In this document: positions 9,414 through 29,287 of the stretch, piece after piece
Layout of the letters: each line of letters starts with the position of its first letter
How positions within the stretch are numbered: position 1 is the first letter of the stretch
IMG/VR virus record: IMGVR_UViG_3300002835_000772
Location: 1 to 30,114 of that record
Source of the DNA: a virus
Length of the DNA stretch: 30,114 bases
Direction: 5' to 3' (one strand)
Translations under genes and position numbers: made by a program
The notes under the pieces: generated by a model
The model's input: the letters and a program-made list of their open reading frames with translations, nothing else
Told to the model about the DNA's origin: nothing
Database searches by the model: none

Positions 9414-9752
9414 ATGGCGACGTTTGAAGCACTGCCGGGCGAGTTGAACATCGCCCTCGTGCGTGGTGACGAGTTCACCTGCTCGGCCACGTTCAATGCC
9501 GATCTCACTGGCTACACCCGGCAGGCGTCGATCTACAACGACGCGACCGGCACGGAAATCGTGGCCCCGACTACGTCGCTGACAACGGCGACTGTCGGCG
9601 GCGTCACGACCAGCACGGTCACGTTCACGCTCACGGAGACGCAGACCGCAAGCCTGACGGCGGCCCGGATGCGGTGGTTCTTCCGCTGGGTGAGCGGCAG
9701 CGGCTTCACGCGGACGGTGCTGGCTGGCACTGTGAGGGCGATCAAGGCATGA
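9414..9752 (+). CDS. Small beta-rich protein of the fibre module
   Basis: 112 residues, predicted nearly all beta with an immunoglobulin-like strand pattern: INIALVRGDEFTCSATF-like start, then GYTRQASIYND, STVTFTLTETQTASL, MRWFFRWVSG and FTRTVLAGTVRAI. The pattern of a short Ig-like unit with an L-x-x-G-D turn is common in small phage baseplate or fibre-base proteins (BppU N-domain-like), often encoded just before the fibre. It overlaps the fibre start by ATGA, so the two are probably made in a fixed ratio. It might anchor the fibre to the neck or tail. Function inferred from context only. Confidence 0.55.
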   Translation: MATFEALPGELNIALVRGDEFTCSATFNADLTGYTRQASIYNDATGTEIVAPTTSLTTATVGGVTTSTVTFTLTETQTASLTAARMRWFFRWVSGSGFTRTVLAGTVRAIKA

Positions 9753-11713
9753 GCGAGATCAACGTATCCGTCGGCGTCGGCCCGGGCGTGGTGGTGTCGG
9801 TGGCCGGCGACGGCACGACGGCCACGGTCACGACCGGCGGCACGGTCGACGTGACGCTGACCGAGTCGAACCCGACCTGGAGCGGGATCGCCGGCAAGCC
9901 GTCCACGTTCCCGCCGCAGGCCCACAGCCACGCGATCGGCGAGGTCACCGGCCTGGCGGCGGCCCTGGCCCAGAAGGTCGAGCTCGACCCGTATGGCAAG
10001 GTGCCGGCATCGCAGCTTCCGAGCTACGTCGACGACGTGCTGGAGTTCGCCAACCTCGCGGCCCTGCCGGCCACGGGCGAGACGGGGAAGATCTACGTCA
10101 CGACGAACAACGGCAGCGTCTACCGCTGGAGCGGCACGACCTACATCGAGATCTCGGCGGCACCCGGTTCGACCGACTTCGTTCCCGAGGGCACGACGAA
10201 CCTCTACCACACGACGGCCCGGGCGGCGGCGGCCGCGCCGGTGCAGAGCGTGGCCGGCAAGACCGGCGCGGTGACGCTCGCGATCGCTGACGTTGGCGGT
10301 CTGCAAACCTCCCTGGACGGCAAGGCCGCCGCTTCGCACGGCCACGATGCCGCGACAACCTCCGCGGCTGGGTTCATGGCCGCGGCCGACAAGACGAAAT
10401 TAGACGGCATCGCCACCGGGGCCACGGCAAACGCCACCGATGCCCAACTCCGCGATCGTTCGACGCACACCGGCACGCAAGCGGCCAGCACGATCACGGG
10501 TCTCGGCGGTGCGGCCACGCTGAACGTCGGCACGACCGCAGGCACCGTCGCGGCGGGCAACGATTCCCGGCTCTCCGACACGCGGACGCCAACCGCCGGG
10601 AGCGTGACGGACGCCTCGATCACCAGCGCCGGACTGTCTACCTCGTCGCTCAACTGGGCCGCGATCCAGCCGTGGGCCGCTAACACGGCATACAGCAAGG
10701 GCGACCTGGTTTCGAATGCGGGCATCGCCTACCGGCGCTCCGCGGCCGGCACGAGCGGGGCGACTTTCAATACAACGAACTGGCAGCAGATCACGCCGTC
10801 GAATCCGGTGATCAGCGTGGACGGTAGCACGGGTGCGGTAACGGTATTGAAAAGCGAGTTCTACACGTTCACGCGAACGTCAAAGCCGGCAGATGCTTCG
10901 GGATCGAATGGTTCATACACATGGTCGATCCCGTCTGCCGCAAAACAAATAACGGTTCTTTCCGTTGGCGGCGGCGGCGGCGGCGGTAGCGGAAGAAGGG
11001 GCGCGGCCGCGTCAGCAAGAGGCGGCGGCGGCGGCGGCGGCTGCGGCGGCTGGACTGAGTTGACCTACAACTGTGCCAGCCTTCCATCGCTTGGCCTAAC
11101 GATTTCAGTTGCGTCCGGCGGGGCTGGCGGCGCCGCAGTTTCGGCAGACTCAACAAACGGCAACGCCGGCGCTGACGGCGGCCACTCAACAGTTTCGCTG
11201 ACCAGCGGAGGAACAATCCTGGCGCGCGCTTGGGGCGCGACAGGCGGCGCAGGTGGCACAACGTCAACGGCAGCCGGCGGCGCACCAGTGTGGTCAAGCC
11301 TATGGACGCCAAGTTCTTCCGGCGCGAGCGGTGGTACCGGAGCCGGAGGCGGCGCGAATCCGCAGCAATTTTCTCACGGTGTTGGCGGCGGCGGCGGCGG
11401 CGTCACGGCGGCTGATGCGCAGTCTGCTGGCGGCAACGGCGGCGCATTACCAATCATGCTAGGCCCAGCCAACGCGCCGACGGCAGGCGCCGCTGGCGGC
11501 GGCGCCGGATCCGCTGGTGCGACGTGGATCGAGCGCTGGGCAACCGGCGGCGCGGGAGGCGGCGGGAATGCCACCGGGGCCGGTGGAACTGGCGGCTCGG
11601 GCGGCGCCCCAGGCGGCGGTGGAGGCGGAGGCGGCGCCGGAACGAACGGCTCGCTGTCTGGTGCTGGCGGAAATGGCGGTGAGGGTCTGGTACGCATCAC
11701 GGTGCATTTCTAA
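9749..11713 (+). CDS. Tail fibre with polyglycine-rich adhesin domain
   Basis: 654 residues. The N-terminal part (1-60) is beta-rich. The middle (about 50-400) carries fibre-shaft features: AHSHAIGEVTGLAAALAQK, SVAGKTGAVTLAIADVGGL, SHGHDAATTSAAGFMAAAD, DRSTHTGTQAASTITGLG. Residues from about 406 to the end are a glycine-rich domain with runs of up to eight or nine glycines, ending GGEGLVRITVHF. Such domains form lattices of polyglycine-II helices in phage adhesins, for example S16 gp38, where loops between the glycine runs bind the receptor. Three (GGC)6-7 runs encode the longest glycine stretches. The true start is ATG 9749 in an ATGA overlap. The last third is less GC-skewed than its neighbours, pointing to exchange of the tip. 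Confidence 0.85.
   Translation: MSEINVSVGVGPGVVVSVAGDGTTATVTTGGTVDVTLTESNPTWSGIAGKPSTFPPQAHSHAIGEVTGLAAALAQKVELDPYGKVPASQLPSYVDDVLEFANLAALPATGETGKIYVTTNNGSVYRWSGTTYIEISAAPGSTDFVPEGTTNLYHTTARAAAAAPVQSVAGKTGAVTLAIADVGGLQTSLDGKAAASHGHDAATTSAAGFMAAADKTKLDGIATGATANATDAQLRDRSTHTGTQAASTITGLGGAATLNVGTTAGTVAAGNDSRLSDTRTPTAGSVTDASITSAGLSTSSLNWAAIQPWAANTAYSKGDLVSNAGIAYRRSAAGTSGATFNTTNWQQITPSNPVISVDGSTGAVTVLKSEFYTFTRTSKPADASGSNGSYTWSIPSAAKQITVLSVGGGGGGGSGRRGAAASARGGGGGGGCGGWTELTYNCASLPSLGLTISVASGGAGGAAVSADSTNGNAGADGGHSTVSLTSGGTILARAWGATGGAGGTTSTAAGGAPVWSSLWTPSSSGASGGTGAGGGANPQQFSHGVGGGGGGVTAADAQSAGGNGGALPIMLGPANAPTAGAAGGGAGSAGATWIERWATGGAGGGGNATGAGGTGGSGGAPGGGGGGGGAGTNGSLSGAGGNGGEGLVRITVHF
10967..11401 (+). 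repeat. Three (GGC)6-7 trinucleotide runs in the fibre gene
   Basis: In-frame GGC repeats lie at 10967-10984 (six, then GGT), 11021-11041 (seven) and 11384-11401 (six). They encode polyglycine. Slippage by whole units would change strand length without breaking the frame. Confidence 0.8.
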
Positions 11714-12114
11714 TGAACGCTCTAGCAATTATTCGCAACGCAGACGGCCGCGTCGTGACGTTTGTCCGTCCCGACGTTCCCGAAGGCTGGCAACCGCCGG
11801 ACGGCTGCACGGCCGTGCCGGATGACGAACTGCCGCCGGGCTGGCAGCGTGCGCCGGACACGACACCCGTGCCGGCCTCGATCTCCGCACGCCAGGCCCG
11901 GCTGTGGCTGATCCGCCACGGCATCACGCTGGCGACCGTGGACGCAACGATCGCATCCATCCCCGACGCGATCACCCGCGAGAGCGTCCGCGTCGAATGG
12001 GAGTACGGCACCGAGGTGCATCGGGCGAGCCAGTTCGTCGCACAACTCGGGGCCACGCTCGGCCTGACGAGCGAGCGGCTCGACGCTGCCTTCCGCGATG
12101 CGGCGAACATCTGA
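11713..12114 (+). CDS. Probable tail-fibre assembly chaperone
   Basis: 133 residues, overlapping the fibre stop (TAATG). The N-terminal third is a short beta/proline segment (IIRNADGRVVTFVRP...PEGWQPPDG). The C-terminal half, ISARQARLWLIRHGITLATVDATI, then RVEWEYGTEVHRASQFVAQLG and LGLTSERLDAAFRDA, matches the helical domain common in small genes directly downstream of phage fibres: a start like 'iTrrQ.rlaLl..Gl', a tryptophan-containing WE segment, and an end like 'lGlt.e..d.lF..A'. Such proteins help fibres fold or trimerise, and some stay bound to the tip. Gene order supports this role. Confidence 0.65.
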   Translation: MNALAIIRNADGRVVTFVRPDVPEGWQPPDGCTAVPDDELPPGWQRAPDTTPVPASISARQARLWLIRHGITLATVDATIASIPDAITRESVRVEWEYGTEVHRASQFVAQLGATLGLTSERLDAAFRDAANI

Positions 12115-12590
12115 TGCCCTCCGCCCCCCACATCCAGCGGCACCTCTGCCAGAAACTGGCCGCCGCCCTGTCGGCCTACTCCTGGCCCGGGGCGATCCAG
12201 ACCATCGACGCCGCCTGGCGGCGGAAGCCGGACTACGGGATCGAGGACCTCGGCACGCTCAAGGTCAGCGTCGTGCCCGGCCCGATCCAGATCAACCAGC
12301 GGGAGCGGCAGCCCCGCGGGTGCGACTTCTTCGAGATGACGGTAGGCATCGTCCTGGCCAAGAGCATTACGACCGAGCAGGAGATCCAGGACCTCGAAGA
12401 CCTGAACCAGTCGATCATCGACACCATCCGCAGCGAGCTGCTGCCGCTGCCCGACCTCGGGGCGGCGGACTGGGTGGAGATCGGCCAGCCGGTGCCGTAT
12501 GACGCCGAGAGCCTTCAGAATCAGCATGTGTTCCTGTCGCAGATCGAGGTGACCTACACGGTGCCGATCGACAAGCTGCCGGGTGTGTGA
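12114..12590 (+). CDS. Tail completion/terminator protein (probable)
   Basis: 158 residues, starting at ATG 12114 in a TGATG overlap. It has a helical N-terminus (IQRHLCQKLAAALSAY), a beta strand set (GTLKVSVVPGP, FFEMTVGIVLAKS), an acidic helix (EQEIQDLEDLNQSIIDTI) and a final beta strand (HVFLSQIEVTYTVPI). The long strand after the helix and the 'qieVtY' ending match the layout of tail terminator proteins such as lambda gpU, which cap the tube. The next gene is HK97 gp10-like and the tube genes follow, which is the expected order. The identification is by layout and order. Confidence 0.5.
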   Translation: MPSAPHIQRHLCQKLAAALSAYSWPGAIQTIDAAWRRKPDYGIEDLGTLKVSVVPGPIQINQRERQPRGCDFFEMTVGIVLAKSITTEQEIQDLEDLNQSIIDTIRSELLPLPDLGAADWVEIGQPVPYDAESLQNQHVFLSQIEVTYTVPIDKLPGV

Positions 12591-13333
12591 TGGCCCTGAT
12601 CCCAGCCGGTCGAAACCCGTATGGCGGTGCCATCTCGATGCAGATGCCGGGCATCCCGTCCGGCATCAACTACGACTACTTCTTCGACCGGGCGGCGATC
12701 AAAAACGCCCTGAAGCCGGCGGTCCACAAGGGCCTCTATCGGGCCGGCTCGGTCGTGATGCAGATCGCCCGCCGCTCGATCAAGCGGAAGGGCATGGCAC
12801 GGCCCAAGCTAAAGGTGATGCAGGAGAACCCGGACTCCACGCTCCGCGACCTGATCGGCATGAGCGAGGCCAGCGGAAACCGCCGGCAGACGAACCAGCT
12901 TCGCCGCCGGCTGCTGGAGATTCAGGCCAAGGCCCCGTCGCCCCCGGGCACGCCGCCGCACACCCACAAGGGCAACCTCCGCGACAAGCCGGGCATCGTG
13001 TTCGCCTGGGATCCGACGAGCGAGTCGGTGGTCGTGGGCCAGGGCTCGCCGTCGGCTGCCTGGCTGGCCAGCCTCCACGAGTTCGGCGGCCGGGAGCAGA
13101 TGCGGGGCTGGGCGTGGATCCCGCGGTGGCCGCGAAGCTACCGAAACGGGATCATCGGCTACTGGCGGGTGGGCCGCGAGCCGCGGCGGAAAGACCGCTG
13201 GGCACCGACCAGCTTCTACGAGGCTGTGCCGTACCCGGAGCGGCCCTACATGCGGCCAGCGTTCAAGCAGGCCATCGCCTCCGGCCGCATCGCCAAGGAG
13301 TTCGCCAACCGCTTCCGGGTCGGCGGCACCTGA
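12590..13333 (+). CDS. HK97 gp10-like neck/minor tail protein
   Basis: 247 residues. Characteristic of the HK97 gp10 family are the central SPPGTPPHTHKGNLRDK, a WLASLHEFGG segment in which the 'hEfGg' motif is diagnostic, and PYPERPYMRPAFKQAI near the end. Proteins of this family, and the related lambda gpZ, sit at the head-tail junction and complete the tail. It is longer than most members (about 110-160), with a basic insert (RRKDRW) and a 50-residue N-terminal extension. The start at ATG 12590 lies in a TGATG overlap; a GTG three bases earlier is in frame but less likely. Confidence 0.75.
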   Translation: MALIPAGRNPYGGAISMQMPGIPSGINYDYFFDRAAIKNALKPAVHKGLYRAGSVVMQIARRSIKRKGMARPKLKVMQENPDSTLRDLIGMSEASGNRRQTNQLRRRLLEIQAKAPSPPGTPPHTHKGNLRDKPGIVFAWDPTSESVVVGQGSPSAAWLASLHEFGGREQMRGWAWIPRWPRSYRNGIIGYWRVGREPRRKDRWAPTSFYEAVPYPERPYMRPAFKQAIASGRIAKEFANRFRVGGT

Positions 13334-13412: not shown

Positions 13413-13790
13413 ATGGCAGCCACGATCAACCTCGGCAGGGACTACACGGTCGCGGGGCTCACCGGCGTCTCCGACCTCGAGCTCACCCGCAGCGGCGAGC
13501 GGATCGACGTTACCACGCGGTCCGGTGCGAAGCCGATCAAGAAGACGATGGCTGGCTTCACGGATTCCACGTTCACCTGCACTGTCCTCGGGGGCGCGAC
13601 CACGTCGTTCGTGATCGGCAAGGAATACAGCCTCACGCTGGCCGGCAGTGTGATCCCCCTGATCTGCATGAGTGCGAACCGCGAGGAGCCGCAGGACGGG
13701 GTCTACAACTACAAGCTCACGATGAAGCCTGGCGTTGAATCGGAGACCGCCAACCAGCTCACCGTCGGCCCTGGCGATTTCCGTTCGTAA
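13413..13790 (+). CDS. Tail tube-like protein 1
   Basis: 125 residues, mostly beta. Begins INLGRDYTVAG (LGRD at 7-10), then ERIDVTTRSG (DVTT at 32-35), MAGFTDSTFTCTVLG, and an end VESETANQLTVGPGDFRS. The pattern of a short N-terminal strand, a 'DVTt' turn and paired strands fits tail tube proteins, which stack as hexamers around the tape measure. Two related genes follow directly. Their order upstream of the chaperone and tape measure is that of the major tail protein. Which of the three is the real major tube protein cannot be told from sequence. Confidence 0.65.
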   Translation: MAATINLGRDYTVAGLTGVSDLELTRSGERIDVTTRSGAKPIKKTMAGFTDSTFTCTVLGGATTSFVIGKEYSLTLAGSVIPLICMSANREEPQDGVYNYKLTMKPGVESETANQLTVGPGDFRS

Positions 13791-13802
13791 CAAGGGAGCA
13801 CC

Positions 13803-14156
13803 ATGCCAACGACAACCTCCTACAAGCTCGGCCGCGATTGCGTTTCTGTGCTACCCGGCGTCGAAAACGACGACATCATCGACGTGACGATCAACGTCAC
13901 AGCCGACGAGCAGGACGTGACGACGTTCAAGTCCACGCCAATCACGGCCCCGGTCTACATGGCCGGCCTGATCGACGTGTCGATCGACGTGACCTGCACG
14001 CACGTCACAGGGACGGTCGACGAGGCCGGTGCTTACGACGTGGCCGGGCTGCCGACGGACCTCCATGCGGTGATCCTGGAGGTCAAGGAAAAGCCTGGCA
14101 TCAAGGGCAAGGTCGAATACACGGTCACCTACGGACTCCAGGAGCCGGCGGCCTGA
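13803..14156 (+). CDS. Tail tube-like protein 2 (paralogue)
   Basis: 117 residues with the same landmarks as its neighbours: YKLGRDCVSVL (LGRD 9-12), DEQDVTTFKS (DVTT 38-41), then VYMAGLIDVSIDVTCTHVTG and a final strand VEYTVTYGLQEPAA. The MAG-x-x-DV segment lines up with MAGFTDST of protein 1 and LAGDVTIK of protein 3. A strong AAGGGAG ribosome binding site lies at 13792-13798, the best in the trio, which argues for high expression. A second tube or tube-decorating role is likely; beta composition and position exclude an enzyme. Confidence 0.62.
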   Translation: MPTTTSYKLGRDCVSVLPGVENDDIIDVTINVTADEQDVTTFKSTPITAPVYMAGLIDVSIDVTCTHVTGTVDEAGAYDVAGLPTDLHAVILEVKEKPGIKGKVEYTVTYGLQEPAA

Positions 14157-14169
14157 TCGCCTGATTGGC

Positions 14170-14532
14170 GTGTCGACCAAGGTAAAGCTCGGCCGCGATC
14201 AGGTCATCTCGCTTGACGGCATCGTCCTGGAGGGCGTCCGTGACATCGACGTGGACCTCGACATGTCCACGCACGATGTCACTTCGTGGTGGCACGGGTG
14301 GAAAAGCACCCTGCCGCTCGCAGGCGACGTGACGATCAAGGTGCTCGTTTACTGGGCAGAGAACTACGAGGACTTCTACGCCAAGTTCAACAAGCACCCG
14401 CCGGAGCGGATGGAGTTGTCGATCAGCAACGCCGTCTCATGCGGATGCGTGCCGGTGAAGATCGCCGTCAAGCAGCCGATCGCGGGCGTGCTGGCCTGGG
14501 AAGTGACCCTGAGAATGTGGACCTACGAATGA
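14170..14532 (+). CDS. Tail tube-like protein 3 (paralogue)
   Basis: 120 residues from GTG 14170, since no ATG covers the conserved start. VKLGRDQVISL (LGRD 7-10), STHDVTSWWHG (DVTS 36-39) and LPLAGDVTIKVLVYW align with proteins 1 and 2. The rest, PPERMELSISNAVSCGCVPVKIAV and LAWEVTLRMWTYE, is beta-rich. No clear ribosome binding site is seen; it may depend on translation of the gene 13 bases upstream. It overlaps the chaperone gene by ATGA. Its tryptophan/aromatic content sets it apart from the other two, which may indicate a specialised ring at one end of the tube. Confidence 0.62.
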   Translation: MSTKVKLGRDQVISLDGIVLEGVRDIDVDLDMSTHDVTSWWHGWKSTLPLAGDVTIKVLVYWAENYEDFYAKFNKHPPERMELSISNAVSCGCVPVKIAVKQPIAGVLAWEVTLRMWTYE

Positions 14533-15002
14533 AGACGTTCAAAACCACCGACGGCACCGAATGGCAGGTCGTTGTCAACGTGGGCACGATCAAGCGGTGC
14601 ATGGATGACACCGGCCTGCGGCTCACGGACCTGTTCGCGAGCGAGGCCAAGATCGGCGAGTTCTTCGCCGATGACGTGCGATTTTGCGAAGTGCTGTTCT
14701 CCGTGATCCGGCCGCAGGCGGATGCGGCCGACAAGACGCTGGACGATTTCCTGGCCGGCATCGACGGCACGGTGATTGAGCAGGCTGTGGAGGCGCTACT
14801 GGCGGAGGTTGCCGATTTTTTCCAAGAGCCCCGCAAGGGGCTGATCAAGAAGACGCTGGCACGCTACCAGGCGGCCCACCTCAAGCTCGTGACCGAAGGC
14901 GTCCTCGCCGCGGAAAAGAGGATCGAGGAGACGGACTTCGAGACACTCCTCCGCCAGACCCTTACGAGCTCTGCTTCGAGCTCGCCGGGCAATGCGGCGT
15001 AG
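14529..15002 (+). CDS. Tail assembly chaperone, G-like
   Basis: 157 residues, starting in the ATGA overlap with tube protein 3. The N-terminus (MKTFKTTDGTEWQVVVNVGTI) is a beta sheet, and the rest is alpha helical (LRLTDLFASEA, VRFCEVLFSVI, LIKKTLARYQAAHLKLV), ending in a low-complexity SSASSSPGNAA. This is the build of the lambda gpG-type chaperones that coat the tape measure before tube growth, and it sits between tube and tape measure as expected. It contains a perfect slippery heptamer TTTTTTC at 14816-14822 in the right phase for a -1 shift; a second, weaker candidate GGAAAAG is at 14912-14918. Confidence 0.75.
   Translation: MKTFKTTDGTEWQVVVNVGTIKRCMDDTGLRLTDLFASEAKIGEFFADDVRFCEVLFSVIRPQADAADKTLDDFLAGIDGTVIEQAVEALLAEVADFFQEPRKGLIKKTLARYQAAHLKLVTEGVLAAEKRIEETDFETLLRQTLTSSASSSPGNAA
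14816..14822 (+). promoter_or_regulatory. Canonical -1 slippery heptamer in the chaperone gene
   Basis: T TTT TTC at 14816-14822 is set in the zero frame as XXXYYYZ. Slippage by one base re-pairs both codons and enters a frame that stays open to 15262 and encodes the T-like domain. The run of six T could also promote transcript slippage. Its distance of about 135 bases from the start of the conserved T segment is longer than usual. Confidence 0.45.
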
Positions 15003-15262
15003 ACCCGTGGGGCTACACGCTGCGCGAGCTTGATTGGATGGCGTGGGGACGATCGAACGAAGAGTGGACCCGGATGTCACACCTCATGACGCTGATCGCC
15101 ACCATCCACTCCGATCCCGATAGCGGCCGCGCCCCGACGATCGCCGACTATCACCCGTACCTGCCAGAGCCTGAACTGCCGACGGCGAGCCCGGACGTGC
15201 TGCGGGCGATCACGGCGGCCATGAGGCGGCAACGCCCGGAGGTGCCGAATGGCAGCGAGTAG
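14957..15262 (+). CDS. T-like extension of the tail assembly chaperone (-1 frame, no start of its own)
   Basis: In the -1 frame relative to the G-like gene, the segment DPYELCFELAGQCGVDPWGY, TLRELDWMAWGRSNEEW and a later PTIADYHPYLPEPEL looks like the T-part of phage GT chaperones, whose conserved pattern is an 'eLaG..G.dP..yTLrEL..Ma.gR...W' helix set. It begins about 80 bases before the first in-frame ATG (15038), and no ATG, GTG or TTG lies in between, so normal initiation would lose its conserved start. The simplest reading is that it is made as a GT fusion by programmed -1 frameshifting, as in lambda. It ends at 15262, 14 bases into the tape measure gene. Confidence 0.7.
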   Translation, partial: DPYELCFELAGQCGVDPWGYTLRELDWMAWGRSNEEWTRMSHLMTLIATIHSDPDSGRAPTIADYHPYLPEPELPTASPDVLRAITAAMRRQRPEVPNGSE

Positions 15263-17900
15263 CGGGGCAGTCCGTGCCGGCGGTGCATTTGTCGAGATCT
15301 TCGCCAAGGATGGGGCTTTCCAGCAGGCGATGACCCGCGTGCAGAATCGCCTGAAGGCGACGGCCGCAGCGATGCGGCAGATGGGCACAAACCTGTCGAT
15401 CGGCGGGGCGGCCCTCGGGGCTCCGTTCGTGCTCGCGGCCCGGGAGGCGACCGGCTTCACGTTGGCCATGGCCCAGGTGCGGGCCAACACAGGGGCCACG
15501 GAGGAGCAGTTCCAGCGGCTCAACAAGGCGGCCCGGGAGATGGGCGTGGCCATGGGCCGCGGCCCGACAGAGACGGCCAACGCCATGAGCGAGCTGGCCA
15601 AGGCGGGCCTCGACGCGGAGGGCACCATCGCGGCCGTGGGGCCGGTGCTGGCCCTGGCGGCGGCCGACGGCATGGAGCTGGGGCGTGCCGTCGAGGTGGT
15701 GGTCGGCACGATGAGCCAGTTTGGGATGAGCACAAAGGACTTCGGCAGCATCGCCGACCGGCTCCGGGCGGCGGCCAACGCCTCGACCACGAGCGTGGAC
15801 CTGATCGGCGAATCGCTCTCCTACGTCGGCCCGCAGGCCCAGATGGCCGGCCAGAGCTTCGACGACGTGGCGGCGGCCCTCGGCACGCTCGCACAGGGCG
15901 GCATCCGCGGAAGCATGGCCGGCACGCAGCTGGCCCGCGTGCTCGAGGCGATGGGCAGCGAGGAGGCCAAGTTCAACGCCCTCGGGATCAGCGTGCGGGA
16001 CGCCTCCGGCAACCTGCGGCCGTTCATGGACGTGCTCCGCGACCTGGGCACGGCGACGGCCGGCATGAACAACGCCGACAAGATGCAGGCGTTCATGGAC
16101 ATCTTCGACATCCGCGGAGCCAGGGCGGCGGCAACGCTTTCCCAGCTCGGCGGTGAGTTCACCCGCATCCTCGGCACCATCCAGGGCTCGGCCGGGGCCG
16201 CCTCGGCCAAGGCCGGCCAGGTGCTGCAATCGTTCGGCGGGCAGGTGCAGGTGCTCGCGGCTAAGTTCGCCGACCTGAAGATCGCCGTGATCACGTCGAT
16301 GGGCCAGACGGCTACCTCGGTCGTGCAAGGGCTGGGCCGGGCCTTGGAGATCGTGACGCAGTTCATCGAGAAGAACCCGACGCTCGTGGCCACCGTGGCG
16401 GCCGTGGTCGGCGGGATGCTGGCCCTGGGGATCGCGGCGACCACGGCCAATATCGGTCTGACTGTGATCGGTAACGGCGTCAAGATGCTTACCGGCGTCC
16501 TGTCGATCCTCCCCGCCCTGTTCACCCCCATCGGCCTCGCGGCCACGGCAGCCTTCGCGGCTGTCGCCGGCGGAATTGTGATCGCCCGCACGCTGTCGCC
16601 GGCATTCAAGGCCGAGACCGACGCCATCTGGCAGGCGATCACCAGGCTCGACTTCGCAACGGCATGGCAGATCATGAACCTGAACTTCGCCATCGCCCTC
16701 ACGCAGATGGCACAGAAGGCGAGCAGCATACTGGCCACGATCAGGGGCACGTTCGCATCCGCCGGGGCGTTCATCGGCGACAAGCTCACCGAGGGGCTCG
16801 ACCGGTTCATGGGCCTCTTCGGGGCTGACGTGATCACCCTGCAAAACGCCTGGCAGCGGCTTGGCATCTACTTCCGAGCGGCGTTCGATTGGAAGTTTGC
16901 GGCCACCGGCATGAAGGCCGCGATCAAGGAGGCGGACGCCCAGGCAAAGCGGGCGCGAGAGCGGGCACCGACGGCGGATGCCAGGGCGGCGGACAGGGCC
17001 AAGGGCAGGCAAACGGCGGCCGACAAACGGCAGGCCGCGATGGAGGCCGATTCAAAGGCGTGGGATGCCACGGTCGAGGAACTTCGAAAAGACCTTGAGC
17101 GGGCACACGACAAGCTGAAGGACGTGCCGAAGGACACGGCCGCACCGGCCCAGGCCGGTGGCACGATGCCGGTCGATCGCGGCGTGATGCCGGTTTCGCC
17201 GGCTGCGGCCACAGAAGCGGCCACAGCGGCCGGCATCGGCCAGACCGTCGGCACGTTCTCCAGCACGGGCGAGGGGCTCGGCATCGGGCCGGAACTGAAC
17301 AAGCTCGAGCAGCCGGCCATTCAGACGGCGGCCAACACGGCGGCCACGGTGGAGGCGCTGAAGGGGATGGCCCGCGGCCTCGACGGGAGGCCGATCGACC
17401 TGGGGGCTACTGGAGTCAATCAGGGCGGGGCAGGTCAGCCTGCGAGCATGACGCCAGAACAATCAGAAGCATTTGAACGGGCCAGAAGATTGGGCCAAGA
17501 AAACAATGACCAAATCAAAGAACTGAAGCGAAAAAGGGCGGCTGGCGAGTGGATTTCTCCAGGTGAAAGGGCAATGCTTTCAGCTGCCGAGACGGCAGAA
17601 TCGGCAAGCCCGTCGTCTGTCAAACAAACAAGACCCGCCGCACAGTCTCCGGTTGGTCAGCCAGTAGCATCGGGCGGCGTGGCCGCCGAGGTCGCCGCCC
17701 CGCGGGCTCCAGCCGTGGCCCAAGCCGCCCGCACCGGCACGGCCGTGGCTGATTCGTCCGGCATCGCCCAGGCCCTGCAAACCGGCTTCGCGTCCATCGT
17801 CACGGCGATCGCCGCCCACGCAAAACTGACCGAGGCCGGCAACGGCACGCTGTCCAAGATCGAAAGCAAACTCTCGACCGCGGGGGCCGTGTTCGCATGA
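15249..17900 (+). CDS. Tail tape measure protein (TP901 core type)
   Basis: 883 residues, helical throughout, in the expected place after the chaperones. Residues about 70-330 form the conserved TP901/PhageMin tape-measure core: REMGVAMGRGPTETANAMSE, LAKAGLDAEGT, and SFDDVAAALGTLAQGGI followed by RGSMAGTQLARVLEAMGS. Two hydrophobic helical segments (about 379-408 and 426-447) could cross the host membrane during DNA delivery. Residues 540-620 are a charged coiled-coil region, and the C-terminal third is Ala/Pro-rich and disordered. By the usual rule of about 1.5 angstrom per residue the tail would be about 130 nm. GGAGG at 15238-15242 fixes the start. A lower-GC patch at about 17400-17650 hints at recombination. 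Confidence 0.92.
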   Translation: MAASSGAVRAGGAFVEIFAKDGAFQQAMTRVQNRLKATAAAMRQMGTNLSIGGAALGAPFVLAAREATGFTLAMAQVRANTGATEEQFQRLNKAAREMGVAMGRGPTETANAMSELAKAGLDAEGTIAAVGPVLALAAADGMELGRAVEVVVGTMSQFGMSTKDFGSIADRLRAAANASTTSVDLIGESLSYVGPQAQMAGQSFDDVAAALGTLAQGGIRGSMAGTQLARVLEAMGSEEAKFNALGISVRDASGNLRPFMDVLRDLGTATAGMNNADKMQAFMDIFDIRGARAAATLSQLGGEFTRILGTIQGSAGAASAKAGQVLQSFGGQVQVLAAKFADLKIAVITSMGQTATSVVQGLGRALEIVTQFIEKNPTLVATVAAVVGGMLALGIAATTANIGLTVIGNGVKMLTGVLSILPALFTPIGLAATAAFAAVAGGIVIARTLSPAFKAETDAIWQAITRLDFATAWQIMNLNFAIALTQMAQKASSILATIRGTFASAGAFIGDKLTEGLDRFMGLFGADVITLQNAWQRLGIYFRAAFDWKFAATGMKAAIKEADAQAKRARERAPTADARAADRAKGRQTAADKRQAAMEADSKAWDATVEELRKDLERAHDKLKDVPKDTAAPAQAGGTMPVDRGVMPVSPAAATEAATAAGIGQTVGTFSSTGEGLGIGPELNKLEQPAIQTAANTAATVEALKGMARGLDGRPIDLGATGVNQGGAGQPASMTPEQSEAFERARRLGQENNDQIKELKRKRAAGEWISPGERAMLSAAETAESASPSSVKQTRPAAQSPVGQPVASGGVAAEVAAPRAPAVAQAARTGTAVADSSGIAQALQTGFASIVTAIAAHAKLTEAGNGTLSKIESKLSTAGAVFA

Positions 17901-19581: not shown

Positions 19582-22290
19582 ATGGACCTCCTTGCTGCTC
19601 TCGCCGCTGATCCGACGCTGCTGCCGCTGTGGGCGGTGATGATCTTCGCGGCTGGGATGTACCCGATCGGGATGATGTTCGGGTGTTCGCCGTGCTGCAA
19701 CCCGTGCGTATGCGCCAGCGGATCAACGCTGCCCGAAACGATTACCGTCACGCTGGACGGATTCACCGACTACAGCAAAAAGCAACTTTGCACGCTGTCT
19801 TTCTCCGCGTGCTATGGCAGCGGGGGATCTGGCACGGTTGACGCGCCGGGACATTCGTCGCCAGAAAGCGACCCCGTGGACGATCGCGGGCCGATCACCG
19901 CCGTGTCGCTAACCGATGGCGGCAGCGGCTACGCGAAACTCGGCAGGACTGCGCCGACCGTCACAGTGACCGGCACAAGTCACAGCGGCGCTGGGGCGAC
20001 ATTCGATGTAACGCTCGCCCAATCGCAGGATTCCTGCGGCCTCGACCTATGGGCGGTCAGCAAGGTGACGGCAACAGGAGGCGAAGGCTACATCGATGGC
20101 GAAGAGTTGACGTTTTCTGTTGCAGAGGGCGACACGCAGGAGACTGCCGCTATTGCGACCATTCAACTCGCGCGAGTCGCCCCAACCGTGACCGTCACCG
20201 GAACGAGCGGAAGTGGATCGGGTGCGACGTTCGATGTAACGCTCGCCCAATCGCAGGGGACTGACGGCCGCGACCGATGGGCAGTCAGCAAGGTGACGAT
20301 GACCGGCGGAACCGGCTACGAAACATTCGACACGCTGACGTTCGGGATTGCGGAAGGCGATACTGAAGAGCAAGCGGCGTCCGCGCAGTTAATCATCGGC
20401 AAGGCCCAGCCGGCGCTCACGCTCCCCGGCAACGCCACGGGAACAGTGTCAACGCAACCGCTGGGCGACGGCACCTACGCGGTCTCTGCCGTCACTGTGA
20501 CAAGCGGCGGCAGCGGGTACACAGACGGCGAGTACCTTTTTTTTGACAAGGCGGCCGACGATGTGAAGGTGTTCAATGCCACCGCGATCGCTAGGGTCGC
20601 GTATACCGAACCGCAAAACGCGACCGTCTCTGTGTCTTCGTCAGGCGGCAGCGGCGCCGTATTAGAGCCGGTATGGGCATTGACAGAGGCTCCAGAGTGG
20701 TATGCCCCAAACGTCAAGGTCTATCGGCTTGCGGGCGTGACTGTGGTGAATGGCGGAACCGGGTACGCGGACTATGATCCCATCTCCATCTCATTCCCGT
20801 CCGCTGCCGATGGCGCACAGTTAGACTTTGATTTCCTTGACGCCGACATCGTCGGCCCGAACGGCGAGATTCAGCAGGTTTACATAGAGCCAACTGACGG
20901 CGGCCAGTGGCGTGGCGCTCGCACCGACGCCCTGGAAAGCGTCGAGTTAGGCCAGGGCGGTAGTTACTACAAGGATGACCCGGACGCTCGCGAGGTTTTT
21001 GTCATCGGCGGCGGTGTCTACTACCGCGAAGACCAAAACCCAAAAACAGTAAGCGTCAGCAACGGCGGCAAATACTACCGTGAAGACGCGAGCCTGCCGC
21101 CTTACGTTGCCGCCGTCACGGTAAACATCAGTCAAGGCCACAACACACCAAGCGACGGAGCTGGAGCGGTGATTACGGCCACCGTCGAAGACGATCCGCA
21201 ATCGCCCGATTTCGGCGTGATAACCGGCCTAGAGATTGAAGACGGCGGCGACGGCTATCTCGCCTGGATGTGGGAGACGAACGACTGCTGCGGGCATTAC
21301 CTTAACGGGCAGTCGATTGTGCTGGAGCGGTTTAAGGACTCCAACGCGGCGGCGTGCGAAGCGGCGACGAAGGACTTTTACGGGCAATACAACATCCCGT
21401 TTGCAGTAGACGGACAATACTATTCCGTTCCGTCCTATTGCGTTTACACAACGCAGTTTTGCGGAGGGTGGACGGTTCCGTTTTTGCTCGGGCCTGTCTG
21501 GTTTAAAGAGCCAACAAACAGCAAGTTGCAACTATACGTTGGGTATCGCGGAGAGGGCGAACGTCCGGTTGTGAAACTCGGCCCGCCATGCTACGGCGGC
21601 CTGGGCAGCGGCGCTAATTGGCTTGGATGTCATCAAGACTGGATCGCAGACGAGCCCATTGAATCGTGTTCGCAGTTTTCGTTTACGGCAACGCCATCCG
21701 GCAAGCCGTCGATCAGCGTAACTTCAGGCGGCCAGTACAAGCCCGATTGGCGTTTTTCAGGGTGCAGTGAAAACAACAACGGAGTTTGCCAATCCTGCAA
21801 CGTCTGCTGTCAAGGGGATGGCGAATCGCCTGACGAGATCGAGGTCGAAATCACGGACGAATGGACAACCAACCGACCGGCGGGCCTTCCCGACTTTTCG
21901 GGAACGTATGTGGCACCTGGCACTGGCAACTATTGGAGTTTCGCTGCTCTCCAGACGCAATCCGGGCTTGACCACATCGGTTTTGGAGTCGGCCTCTACC
22001 CATGCCACAGCGGACTCCTGCCCATATATGTAGCGCCGCTGCGTGAAAACTGCGAAACGTGCATTAAGCAATGCCGGGTGTGGTTCGGCGGAATAAATAT
22101 GTCGTGGACGCATAACAACATTTTAAATGTAAGACGCATAGCACCTGAACAACTGCCGAATGACTGCGACGACTGCGAATCCACGCCTGTGTGCTCGCCT
22201 TCTGGCAAGACGTTTGCGCTGTCGATAGCCGATCCCGCGCTAGTTTGGTACGGCAACGGCACGCATGTGGCAACGGCGACAATCCAATGA
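19582..22290 (+). CDS. Large cysteine-rich beta-repeat protein, probable receptor-binding tail-tip protein
   Basis: 902 residues. Near the N-terminus a hydrophobic stretch (LLPLWAVMIFAAGMYPIGMMF) is followed at once by a cysteine cluster CSPCCNPCVC. Many GG-x-GY units follow: LTDGGSGYAKLG, VTATGGEGYIDGEEL, VTMTGGTGYETFD, VTSGGSGYTDGEYLF, VNGGTGYADYDP. This repeat type is common in phage structural proteins. Two of the units come from a 228-base duplication. Three short repeats GG(S/V/K)YY(K/R)(D/E)D come next. The C-terminal half has several cysteine pairs (CVYTTQFCGGW, CSENNNGVCQSCNVCC, CETCIKQC, CDDC), suggesting metal or disulfide-stabilised knobs. It is AT-richer than its neighbours, as host-range genes often are. 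I infer a central tip fibre or adhesin; the hydrophobic start is unusual for one. Confidence 0.6.
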   Translation: MDLLAALAADPTLLPLWAVMIFAAGMYPIGMMFGCSPCCNPCVCASGSTLPETITVTLDGFTDYSKKQLCTLSFSACYGSGGSGTVDAPGHSSPESDPVDDRGPITAVSLTDGGSGYAKLGRTAPTVTVTGTSHSGAGATFDVTLAQSQDSCGLDLWAVSKVTATGGEGYIDGEELTFSVAEGDTQETAAIATIQLARVAPTVTVTGTSGSGSGATFDVTLAQSQGTDGRDRWAVSKVTMTGGTGYETFDTLTFGIAEGDTEEQAASAQLIIGKAQPALTLPGNATGTVSTQPLGDGTYAVSAVTVTSGGSGYTDGEYLFFDKAADDVKVFNATAIARVAYTEPQNATVSVSSSGGSGAVLEPVWALTEAPEWYAPNVKVYRLAGVTVVNGGTGYADYDPISISFPSAADGAQLDFDFLDADIVGPNGEIQQVYIEPTDGGQWRGARTDALESVELGQGGSYYKDDPDAREVFVIGGGVYYREDQNPKTVSVSNGGKYYREDASLPPYVAAVTVNISQGHNTPSDGAGAVITATVEDDPQSPDFGVITGLEIEDGGDGYLAWMWETNDCCGHYLNGQSIVLERFKDSNAAACEAATKDFYGQYNIPFAVDGQYYSVPSYCVYTTQFCGGWTVPFLLGPVWFKEPTNSKLQLYVGYRGEGERPVVKLGPPCYGGLGSGANWLGCHQDWIADEPIESCSQFSFTATPSGKPSISVTSGGQYKPDWRFSGCSENNNGVCQSCNVCCQGDGESPDEIEVEITDEWTTNRPAGLPDFSGTYVAPGTGNYWSFAALQTQSGLDHIGFGVGLYPCHSGLLPIYVAPLRENCETCIKQCRVWFGGINMSWTHNNILNVRRIAPEQLPNDCDDCESTPVCSPSGKTFALSIADPALVWYGNGTHVATATIQ
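19948..20404 (+). repeat. 228-base tandem duplication inside the tip gene
   Basis: Segments around TCGATGTAACGCTCGCCCAA (20003 and 20231) and GGTCAGCAAGGTGACG-like (20053 and 20281) recur exactly 228 bases, or 76 codons, apart. The near-identity at DNA level, including third positions, shows a recent duplication of one GG-x-GY beta unit. Confidence 0.8.
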
Positions 22291-26802: not shown

Positions 26803-27561
26803 CTACGCTGTTCGGTTCTTCAGGCTGCGGCGCGTGTTCAGCTGCTGCTCGCTGTCAGTTGCCCACCGGCAGTTGCATGCGGTGATTCCACGTTGACGGC
26901 AGTCGCCGCACTTACCGCAGCAGTATCCGCCGTCGTTGTCGATCCGGTCGATGCTCTTCCCATTGGGCCGGTCGCCCATGTCGGAGAAGAATGCACTGAA
27001 CGAGTCACGCCATCGAGCGCACACGAATATTCCTCGCGCGCCGTACTTGTAGTACGAGCAGTGCCTCGTGTTGTGACATCGCCCAACCATCGTCTTCCAG
27101 GCGTTGTAAATCGCGGTCTTGCTCATTCCGTGGGTAGTGCTTGCTTGCGACAACAGATCATTGTGGAGACACCCACAACTGCGGGTGGCACCGGACTTCA
27201 GCGCCGCGGCCTGCACCACGCTCTCCGCTCCGCATTCGCACTGGCACAGCCAGAACGCGCCCGGCTTTCCAGCGCGAGACGTAAGCCTCAGCGCGGCCAA
27301 CTTCCCGAACGTGCGGCCGGAAAGATTCTCGGTGTATCGCTCTCGCGCCAGTTCGGCACGAAGGCATCCGCAGCTTTCTGTGGTTCCGCTGACGAGCCCA
27401 GCCGTTATGACTTCAGTGACCTTCCCACAGTCACATTGACAAAGCCAGCGTCGCTTCTTGCTGCGCACTCCGGCAAAGGACAGGACCGTCAGCCTGCCGA
27501 AGCGCATCCCGGACAGCTGGTGAATCTTCGACGGTCGTGCGTTACCATTTCCGGAAGCCAT
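26803..27561 (-). CDS. HNH homing endonuclease with two zinc-ribbon modules
   Basis: 252 residues, the only minus-strand gene. It starts at the ATG with complement at 27559-27561 (GTGGAGG ribosome binding site upstream). Two similar DNA-binding modules lie in the first 130 residues: GRLTVLSF...RRWLCQCDCGK...ESCGCL and GKLAALRL...FWLCQCECGA...RSCGCL. Then comes the HNH segment: TTHGMSKTAIYNAWKTMVGR, KYGARGIFVCARW, GDRPNGKSIDRIDNDGGYCC and NCRWATDSEQQLNTRR. The CCGKCGDCRQRG insert is a known zinc-holding variant. Such free-standing enzymes cut DNA lacking the gene and spread by repair. It sits between a small secreted-protein gene and the papain-like gene, orientation opposite to all neighbours. 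Confidence 0.9.
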   Translation of the reverse strand: MASGNGNARPSKIHQLSGMRFGRLTVLSFAGVRSKKRRWLCQCDCGKVTEVITAGLVSGTTESCGCLRAELARERYTENLSGRTFGKLAALRLTSRAGKPGAFWLCQCECGAESVVQAAALKSGATRSCGCLHNDLLSQASTTHGMSKTAIYNAWKTMVGRCHNTRHCSYYKYGARGIFVCARWRDSFSAFFSDMGDRPNGKSIDRIDNDGGYCCGKCGDCRQRGITACNCRWATDSEQQLNTRRSLKNRTA

Positions 27562-27662
27562 GATGCGAACCTCCACGAGGGTTTGCTTGTGGTCAGAGCC
27601 GGCTGGCGTTACCGCGCCTGTCCGGCTCGCCCCATTCTAGGGCAAAGAGTGGGGGTGCTGTC

Positions 27663-28540: not shown

Positions 28541-29287
28541 ATGCGAACGCTCGCCATCGTCCTGGCTCTCCTCGCCGGCATCGCCGCCGGGGCCGAGTGC
28601 CCCAACTGCCACGGCGAGCGGATCGTCGGGCCGGCCCCGGTGCGGCTCCCCTGCCCCGTCTGCGACGGTGCCGGCGAGCTACCCGACAAGGTGGCGGCCG
28701 AGCCCGCCCACCGGGCGGCGGTCGTGCGGGTGACGGCGGCCGAGGGCAACGTGCGACACAGCGGCTCGGGCGTGCTCGTGAGCGTCACCGGATCCACGGG
28801 CACCATCCTCACGAACTGGCACGTCATCCGCGACGGCAAGGATGGCGTGGTGGTCAAGTGGCCAAACGGCACGACCACGCCGGCGAAGGTGCAGGCATCC
28901 GACACGGTTTGGGATCTCGCGGCCCTGGCGGTGGCGAACCCGCCGGCCGCCCCGGTGCCGGTGGCGGTGCAGGCCCCGCGGATCGGCGACCGGCTGACGA
29001 TCGCCGGCTACGGCCCGGACGGCAAGTACCTCGAGCAGACAGGAGCGGTGACGCTCTACGCCTCCCCGGGCCGGGGCCGTGGCGGGCCGCCGCAGCTGGT
29101 TGAGATGAAGGCCGCCGCCAGGCAGGGCGACAGCGGCGGGCCGATGCTCAACGCCGACGGCCATGTGGCCGGCGTGCTGTTCGGCTCGATCAACGGCCGC
29201 ACGATCGGCAGCTGCTCCACGCGGGTGGCAGCGTTTCTCGCGGGCGATGCGATCGCCTGCTCCGATGGGAGATGCAAAACGAAATGA
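28541..29287 (+). CDS. Secreted trypsin-like serine protease with a zinc-finger-like N-domain
   Basis: 248 residues. A signal peptide (MRTLAIVLALLAGIAAGA) is followed by two CxxCxGxG-like knuckles (C20, C23 and C38, C41) like those of DnaJ. Then comes an S1/HtrA-type protease domain with a full catalytic triad in correct contexts: TNWHVIRD (H94), VWDLAALAV (D125) and QGDSGGPM (S198). The sequence IAGYGPDGKYLEQTGAVTLY fits the strands between them. Extracellular serine proteases are unusual in phage late operons. No transmembrane anchor is seen. It starts two bases after the previous stop and overlaps the next gene by ATGA, so it is part of the same expression unit. Substrate is unknown; cell-wall or surface protein is plausible. 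Confidence 0.88.
   Translation: MRTLAIVLALLAGIAAGAECPNCHGERIVGPAPVRLPCPVCDGAGELPDKVAAEPAHRAAVVRVTAAEGNVRHSGSGVLVSVTGSTGTILTNWHVIRDGKDGVVVKWPNGTTTPAKVQASDTVWDLAALAVANPPAAPVPVAVQAPRIGDRLTIAGYGPDGKYLEQTGAVTLYASPGRGRGGPPQLVEMKAAARQGDSGGPMLNADGHVAGVLFGSINGRTIGSCSTRVAAFLAGDAIACSDGRCKTK

Follow-up and report, generated by a model that had tools for sequence, protein, structure and literature searches.

The phage tail tube is commonly regarded as a stack of a single protein, and a locus with three adjacent tube-like genes raises the question of what one phage does with all of them. The window analyzed here, a stretch of 30,114 bases comprising an entire IMG/VR virus record from an uncultured phage, contains such a locus. 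A sequence-only reading had pointed to three consecutive related genes starting at positions 13413, 13803 and 14170, and it had suggested that they encode a mosaic tube. All three open reading frames (ORFs) are present at these positions (125, 117 and 120 amino acids), and we refer to them as P1, P2 and P3. The features of the tail region are:

12114..12590, plus strand: probable tail terminator, by position only; kept in all trio loci, without informative family match
12587..13333, plus strand: neck or tail completion protein, upstream of P1-P3; phrog_5 (tail completion or Neck1), E 1.2e-4
13413..13790, plus strand: P1, first paralog, very probably of tail tube fold; ORF and translation, 125 aa; family A1
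13803..14156, plus strand: P2, second paralog, strongly acidic; ORF and translation, 117 aa; family A2
14170..14532, plus strand: P3, third paralog, the clearest tail tube protein; 120 aa, GTG start; family A3
14529..15002, plus strand: tail assembly chaperone (gpG-like), by position and conservation; weak Phage_tail_T match, E 0.19
15249..17900, plus strand: tape measure protein, 883 aa; PhageMin_Tail E 2e-41, PHROGs tape measure E 5e-57

The trio is flanked by the neck protein on one side and by the tail chaperone and tape measure protein on the other, a placement just before the latter two that is expected of tail tube genes. The stop codon of P3 overlaps the chaperone start codon (ATGA) in the window and in the majority of its relatives; some others show TGATG/TAATG instead. 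The head and packaging module of the record is of lambda type, with a terminase containing a GpA nuclease domain, a lambda-family portal and a capsid protein; a cement protein and a head-tail joining protein are also encoded. The sheath family Phage_sheath_1 (PF04984) is not matched anywhere in the 30 kb record, which may be incomplete. As far as such a record can tell, the lack of a sheath gene argues for a tail module of the siphophage type.

Downstream of the chaperone ORF (14900-15262), the -1 frame is open into an ORF at 15038-15262, and its translation includes a segment (...YELCFELAGQCGVDPWGYTLRELDWMAWGR...) that relatives conserve. A programmed frameshift after the chaperone ORF, as in the lambda G-GT pair, is likely; no slippery site for it was identified.

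The sequence-only reading had related the three genes by shared motifs. The first of these, LGRD near residue 8, is found at residues 7-10 of P1, 9-12 of P2 and 7-10 of P3, and is looser across relatives (LG[KRH][DN]). The second, DVT(T/S) near residue 35, is found at residues 32-35, 38-41 and 36-39, respectively. A third, AG-x-x-D, holds for P1 (A47) and P2 (A54) but not for P3, which reads AG-D. Overall, the three proteins are only about 25 % alike, and pairwise BLASTP among them is marginal (E 2e-5, 0.02 and 0.17). We therefore turn to profile-profile alignment of the P1, P2 and P3 families built from viral contigs, which gives scores of 32.1 (P1-P2), 48.2 (P2-P3) and 35.9 (P1-P3). None of the column-shuffled controls (150 per pair) reaches the real scores, their maxima lying at 22-24 (highest 24.4), while reversed profiles score 12-14 and eight neighboring gene families of the same phages score 8.9-17.7 against P1-P3. 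The column shuffles and the neighboring gene families rule out chance sharing of motifs. When the profiles are deepened with more distant homologs, the alignments become full length, with scores of 47, 71 and 50 over 98-106 columns (P1-P2, E 9e-8, 98 columns; P2-P3, E 2.4e-12, 106 columns; P1-P3, E 3.5e-8, 106 columns). Judged by their profiles, P1, P2 and P3 are paralogs along their whole length, related by common descent.

Identification of the trio as tube proteins relies on predicted structures. P2 and P3 were modeled jointly with AlphaFold2 from the adjacent, in-frame orthologs of contig L002, with the intervening stop codon read as serine; this join is a computational device and makes no claim on translation. 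The model has a pLDDT of 65, with most core blocks at about 65-80. Its P3 half superposes on known tail tubes over 107-110 residues (YDC107, Z 10.2; GTA, Z 9.9; lambda gpV, Z 9.6; SPP1, Z 9.2) and also matches monocin tubes in the group with Z of 9-10. Nearly all VIA rows for this half are tube or related tail-ring proteins (Z 8-10, about 110 residues), and the only four Foldseek hits below 1e-3 for the L002 P2-P3 model are all monocin tube chains. P3 displays the hallmarks of a tube protein in the model, namely beta-sandwich strands, a long loop (161-168) that follows the second core strand, and a helix (186-196) on the flank. The P2 half has the same strand order and lacks the helix; when the fused model was searched against known structures, no row matched this half on its own. 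P1, modeled with AlphaFold2 from a 14-row alignment at low confidence (pLDDT 57), lacks the helix as well. Foldseek returned no significant match for the P1 model (best E 0.04). Its tube-like top matches lie at E 0.04-0.2, and its first 20 rows are mostly tail proteins (of phages, GTA or monocins) or Hcp and include the lambda gpV, R4C and GTA tubes (none significant).

Pfam gave no match above cut-off for P1-P3, PHROGs gave no strong assignment, and a PDB sequence search with P1-P3 returned nothing relevant. The weak PHROGs matches of single relatives are all to 'major tail protein' (phrog_13196, E 6.7e-4 in family A2; phrog_1407, E 0.0057 in A3 and 0.029 in A1).

The sequence-only reading had assigned all three genes to the tube from gene order and beta composition, and had proposed superposing them on lambda gpV and HK97 gp6. 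HK97 gp6 is a head-tail connector protein. The identity of P3 as a tail tube protein is well supported by predicted fold and position. P1 very probably has the same fold, given its low-confidence model and its profile homology to P3, and so, very probably, does P2 by homology to P3. Taken as a whole, paralogy and a tube fold for the entire trio are highly probable. A decorated surface had also been envisaged; none of P1, P2 or P3 contains an extra Ig-type decoration domain, and all members are 115-127 residues long, about one tube domain.

Whole-record scans covered 20 related records, the window included. The P1 family is present in 18 of these and the P2 family in all 20, and P3 comes next in all trio contigs that extend that far. 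All close viral relatives holding the full region have the trio, and the gene order of trio contigs is constant (neck-P1-P2-P3-chaperone-tape measure) with no inserted genes. In a maximum-likelihood tree of the homologs, which the sequence-only reading had suggested as a check on conservation, P1, P2 and P3 each form one clade (99/97, 98/94 and 98/96). Values of dN/dS between close pairs are mostly 0.1-0.5 for each of the three, indicating that all are maintained under purifying selection.

In two distant contigs (L047/L087 and L048/L088), P1 is absent and the corresponding position is occupied by two genes, one like P2 and the other like P3. Profile comparison of these duo genes links the first to P2 (E 2.7e-11) and the second to P3 (E 2.3e-6). 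In the tree they join P2 (98/90) and, less surely, P3 (88/36), with long branches involved in both placements. From this topology the P2/P3 duplication appears older than the split of the trio and duo lineages, and P1 would either have been gained later or lost in the duo phages. The two-gene relatives provide a natural comparison for the trio phages. The tape measure protein has 708-883 residues in the three-tube-gene contigs and 554 in the two duo contigs (L087, L088); the latter are close relatives of each other, so this pattern is not yet a correlation between tape measure length and tube gene number.

No relatives of P1-P3 were found among 50,697 phage genomes, and the lineage appears to be without cultured members. 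Scans of bacterial genomes (GTDB contigs) with the P1 and P2 profiles found no relative either, and we therefore assign no host.

The paralogs differ in ways that may reflect specialization. P2 is strongly acidic in all trio relatives (pI 4.16 +- 0.10, net charge -11.1), compared with net charges of -1.7 for P1, -3.0 for P3 and -3 to -4 for the duo genes. An estimate of strand-face charge gives -3.6 for P2, -1.8 for P3 and +0.3 for P1, which, resting on predicted strands, is a hint only. The lumen of the JBD30 tail tube is negatively charged, and its authors link this charge to DNA passage (PMC11445458); by analogy, P2 could be a main DNA-conduit subunit of the tube. In most members of the P1 family, the last strand is followed by a conserved VGPGDYR tail.

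The ribosome binding sites upstream of the three genes differ, as had been noted from the sequence, and the P3 site is weak in the window (duplex energy -1.7 vs -6.4 and -7.6 for the other two). This weakness is not consistent across relatives. Site strength was rejected as a clue to the major subunit, the energies failing to separate P1 from P3 (p 0.82) or P2 from P3 (p 0.27), with P2 vs P1 as the sole nominal difference (p 0.03). Ribosome binding strengths do not clearly mark major and minor subunits.

We propose, with a probability of roughly 0.6, that three tail tube genes, which arose by ancient duplication and stand in an array at this locus, form a composite tube in a siphophage-type, uncultured lineage. 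P1, P2 and P3 would polymerize into the rings of a single tube that encloses the tape measure protein, with different paralogs placed in different rings or at different ends. One paralog might, for example, make up most of the shaft while the others provide the rings in contact with the tail tip or the neck, although these places are guesses. Such tip or neck rings would parallel T4 gp48/gp54 and the eCIS tube initiators of contractile tails. The conserved acidity of P2 would fit a DNA-conduit shaft subunit, and the overlap between the P3 stop and the chaperone start would fit a subunit supplied in step with the onset of tail assembly. A composite tube is the simplest reading that accounts for the long conservation of all three genes. 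That the paralogs form position-specific rings within one tube, a division of labor that we infer, is somewhat favored.

Alternatively, a single paralog may form the tube while the other two keep the tube fold and act elsewhere in the tail, as a terminator ring, collar or tip adaptor, analogous to the tail terminators and distal tail proteins of other phages. Terminators and Dit make use of tube-like folds too, and proteins of this kind occur among our structure matches; the helix seen only in the P3 model and the conserved tail of P1 would be compatible with such roles. However, trio loci have a separate candidate terminator (12114-12590) and a neck protein, another gene follows the tape measure in the usual place of Dit, and two of the three paralog classes are retained even in the distant duo phages. 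We consider this alternative unlikely.

The paralogs might also share one ring, with P2 and P3, for example, alternating to give three-fold rings like those of T5 pb6, a protein made of two fused copies of the domain (PMC5717097). Among the Foldseek matches that span the whole fused P2-P3 model, several are larger tube proteins such as T5 pb6 and the SH-Ab15497 major tail protein, and the distant relatives carry exactly two genes. Mixed rings are known for Bacteroides Hcp, where the tube-fold paralogs Hcp2 and Hcp3 of a type VI secretion system co-assemble as a heterohexamer in one ring (PDB 9vne; PMC13323088, with reference to another paper). That case concerns a secretion system, and co-assembly of P1-P3 would be hypothetical. 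The whole-length matches have an rmsd of 15-20 Å and are silent on the relative placement of the two halves, the two-gene chain is a computational fusion, and alternation of three genes is not simply compatible with a three-fold hub. Shared rings are improbable. We are just as doubtful of a non-contractile tube with hetero-oligomeric rings in which two or three separately encoded paralogs alternate (acidic P2 with P3, plus P1 at special places), a state reached in steps from an ancestor with two genes. A tandem duplication that is recent and functionally redundant, as the tandem arrangement and shared motifs might suggest, is contradicted by tree, dN/dS and conservation, with genes about 25 % alike that each form one clade over about 20 contigs under purifying selection, and can be dismissed.

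The triplicated locus has a published counterpart. The sequence-only reading had held that phages normally have one major tube gene, sometimes with a related second, a view that is out of date since the description of a family of contractile-tailed phages with three (PMC12846349). According to that 2025 paper on Pseudomonas phage Adele, all analyzed Vandenendeviridae possess a cluster of three tube genes (24-29 % identity in Adele), each forming its own clade across the family, and specialization was proposed but untested (PMC12846349). Like Vandenendeviridae, the present lineage has three adjacent, diverged tube paralogs, each monophyletic. In contrast to those myophages, no sheath gene was found in our record, the proteins are 115-127 rather than 159-174 residues long (the latter with near-identical predicted folds), no sequence relative occurs among the 50,697 phage records, and distant relatives show a two-gene state. 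The present trio is therefore an independent-looking, siphophage-type variant of the published arrangement and not a new kind of system, and it offers a clean, testable case of an arrangement only recently described.

Position-specific, ring-forming proteins at the tube base are represented by T4 gp48/gp54, which accompany gp19, and by the eCIS/Mu tube initiators. These belong to contractile systems and are encoded with baseplate genes. The trio lineage makes it possible to test whether siphophages have dedicated starter or end rings of this kind, and the long retention of three diverged genes whether tubes use functionally different rings.

A review of major tail proteins covers phages with a single tube gene, the pair that SPP1 makes by frameshifting and the duplicate that is fused in T5 (PMC8718954; PMC5717097). 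As in SPP1, where gp17.1 and gp17.1* coexist, more than one form of tube protein would occur in one siphophage tail (PMC8718954); in SPP1, however, a single gene gives the second form when a frameshift appends an FN3 domain, whereas the present locus has three genes without any such addition. T5 pb6 likewise builds a tube from a duplicated tube domain (PMC5717097), with the two domains fused in one chain that forms trimeric rings. Here, in the window as well as in its relatives, stop codons separate the domains into ORFs of their own. Three kept tube genes, compared with one in most phages, suggest a tail tube of several specialized parts.

Other genes of the record deserve mention. A long ORF at 9674-11713 has a very glycine-rich C-terminal half and is apparently fibre-like; with the head-tail joining genes on one side and the tail genes on the other, its location is unusual for a fibre. 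The region 19582-22290, past the tail genes, encodes a 902-aa cysteine-rich protein with internal repeats (TVTGTSxSGxGATFDVTLAQSQ) and a weak head-closure PHROG match. Near the record end, the product of 28541-29287 is a trypsin-like serine peptidase (Trypsin_2, E 1.8e-20); it apparently carries a signal peptide, and its N-terminus is CxxC-rich. An HNH endonuclease-like gene (26803-27576, minus strand; phrog_374, E 8e-73), possibly a homing endonuclease, lies within a run of plus-strand genes.
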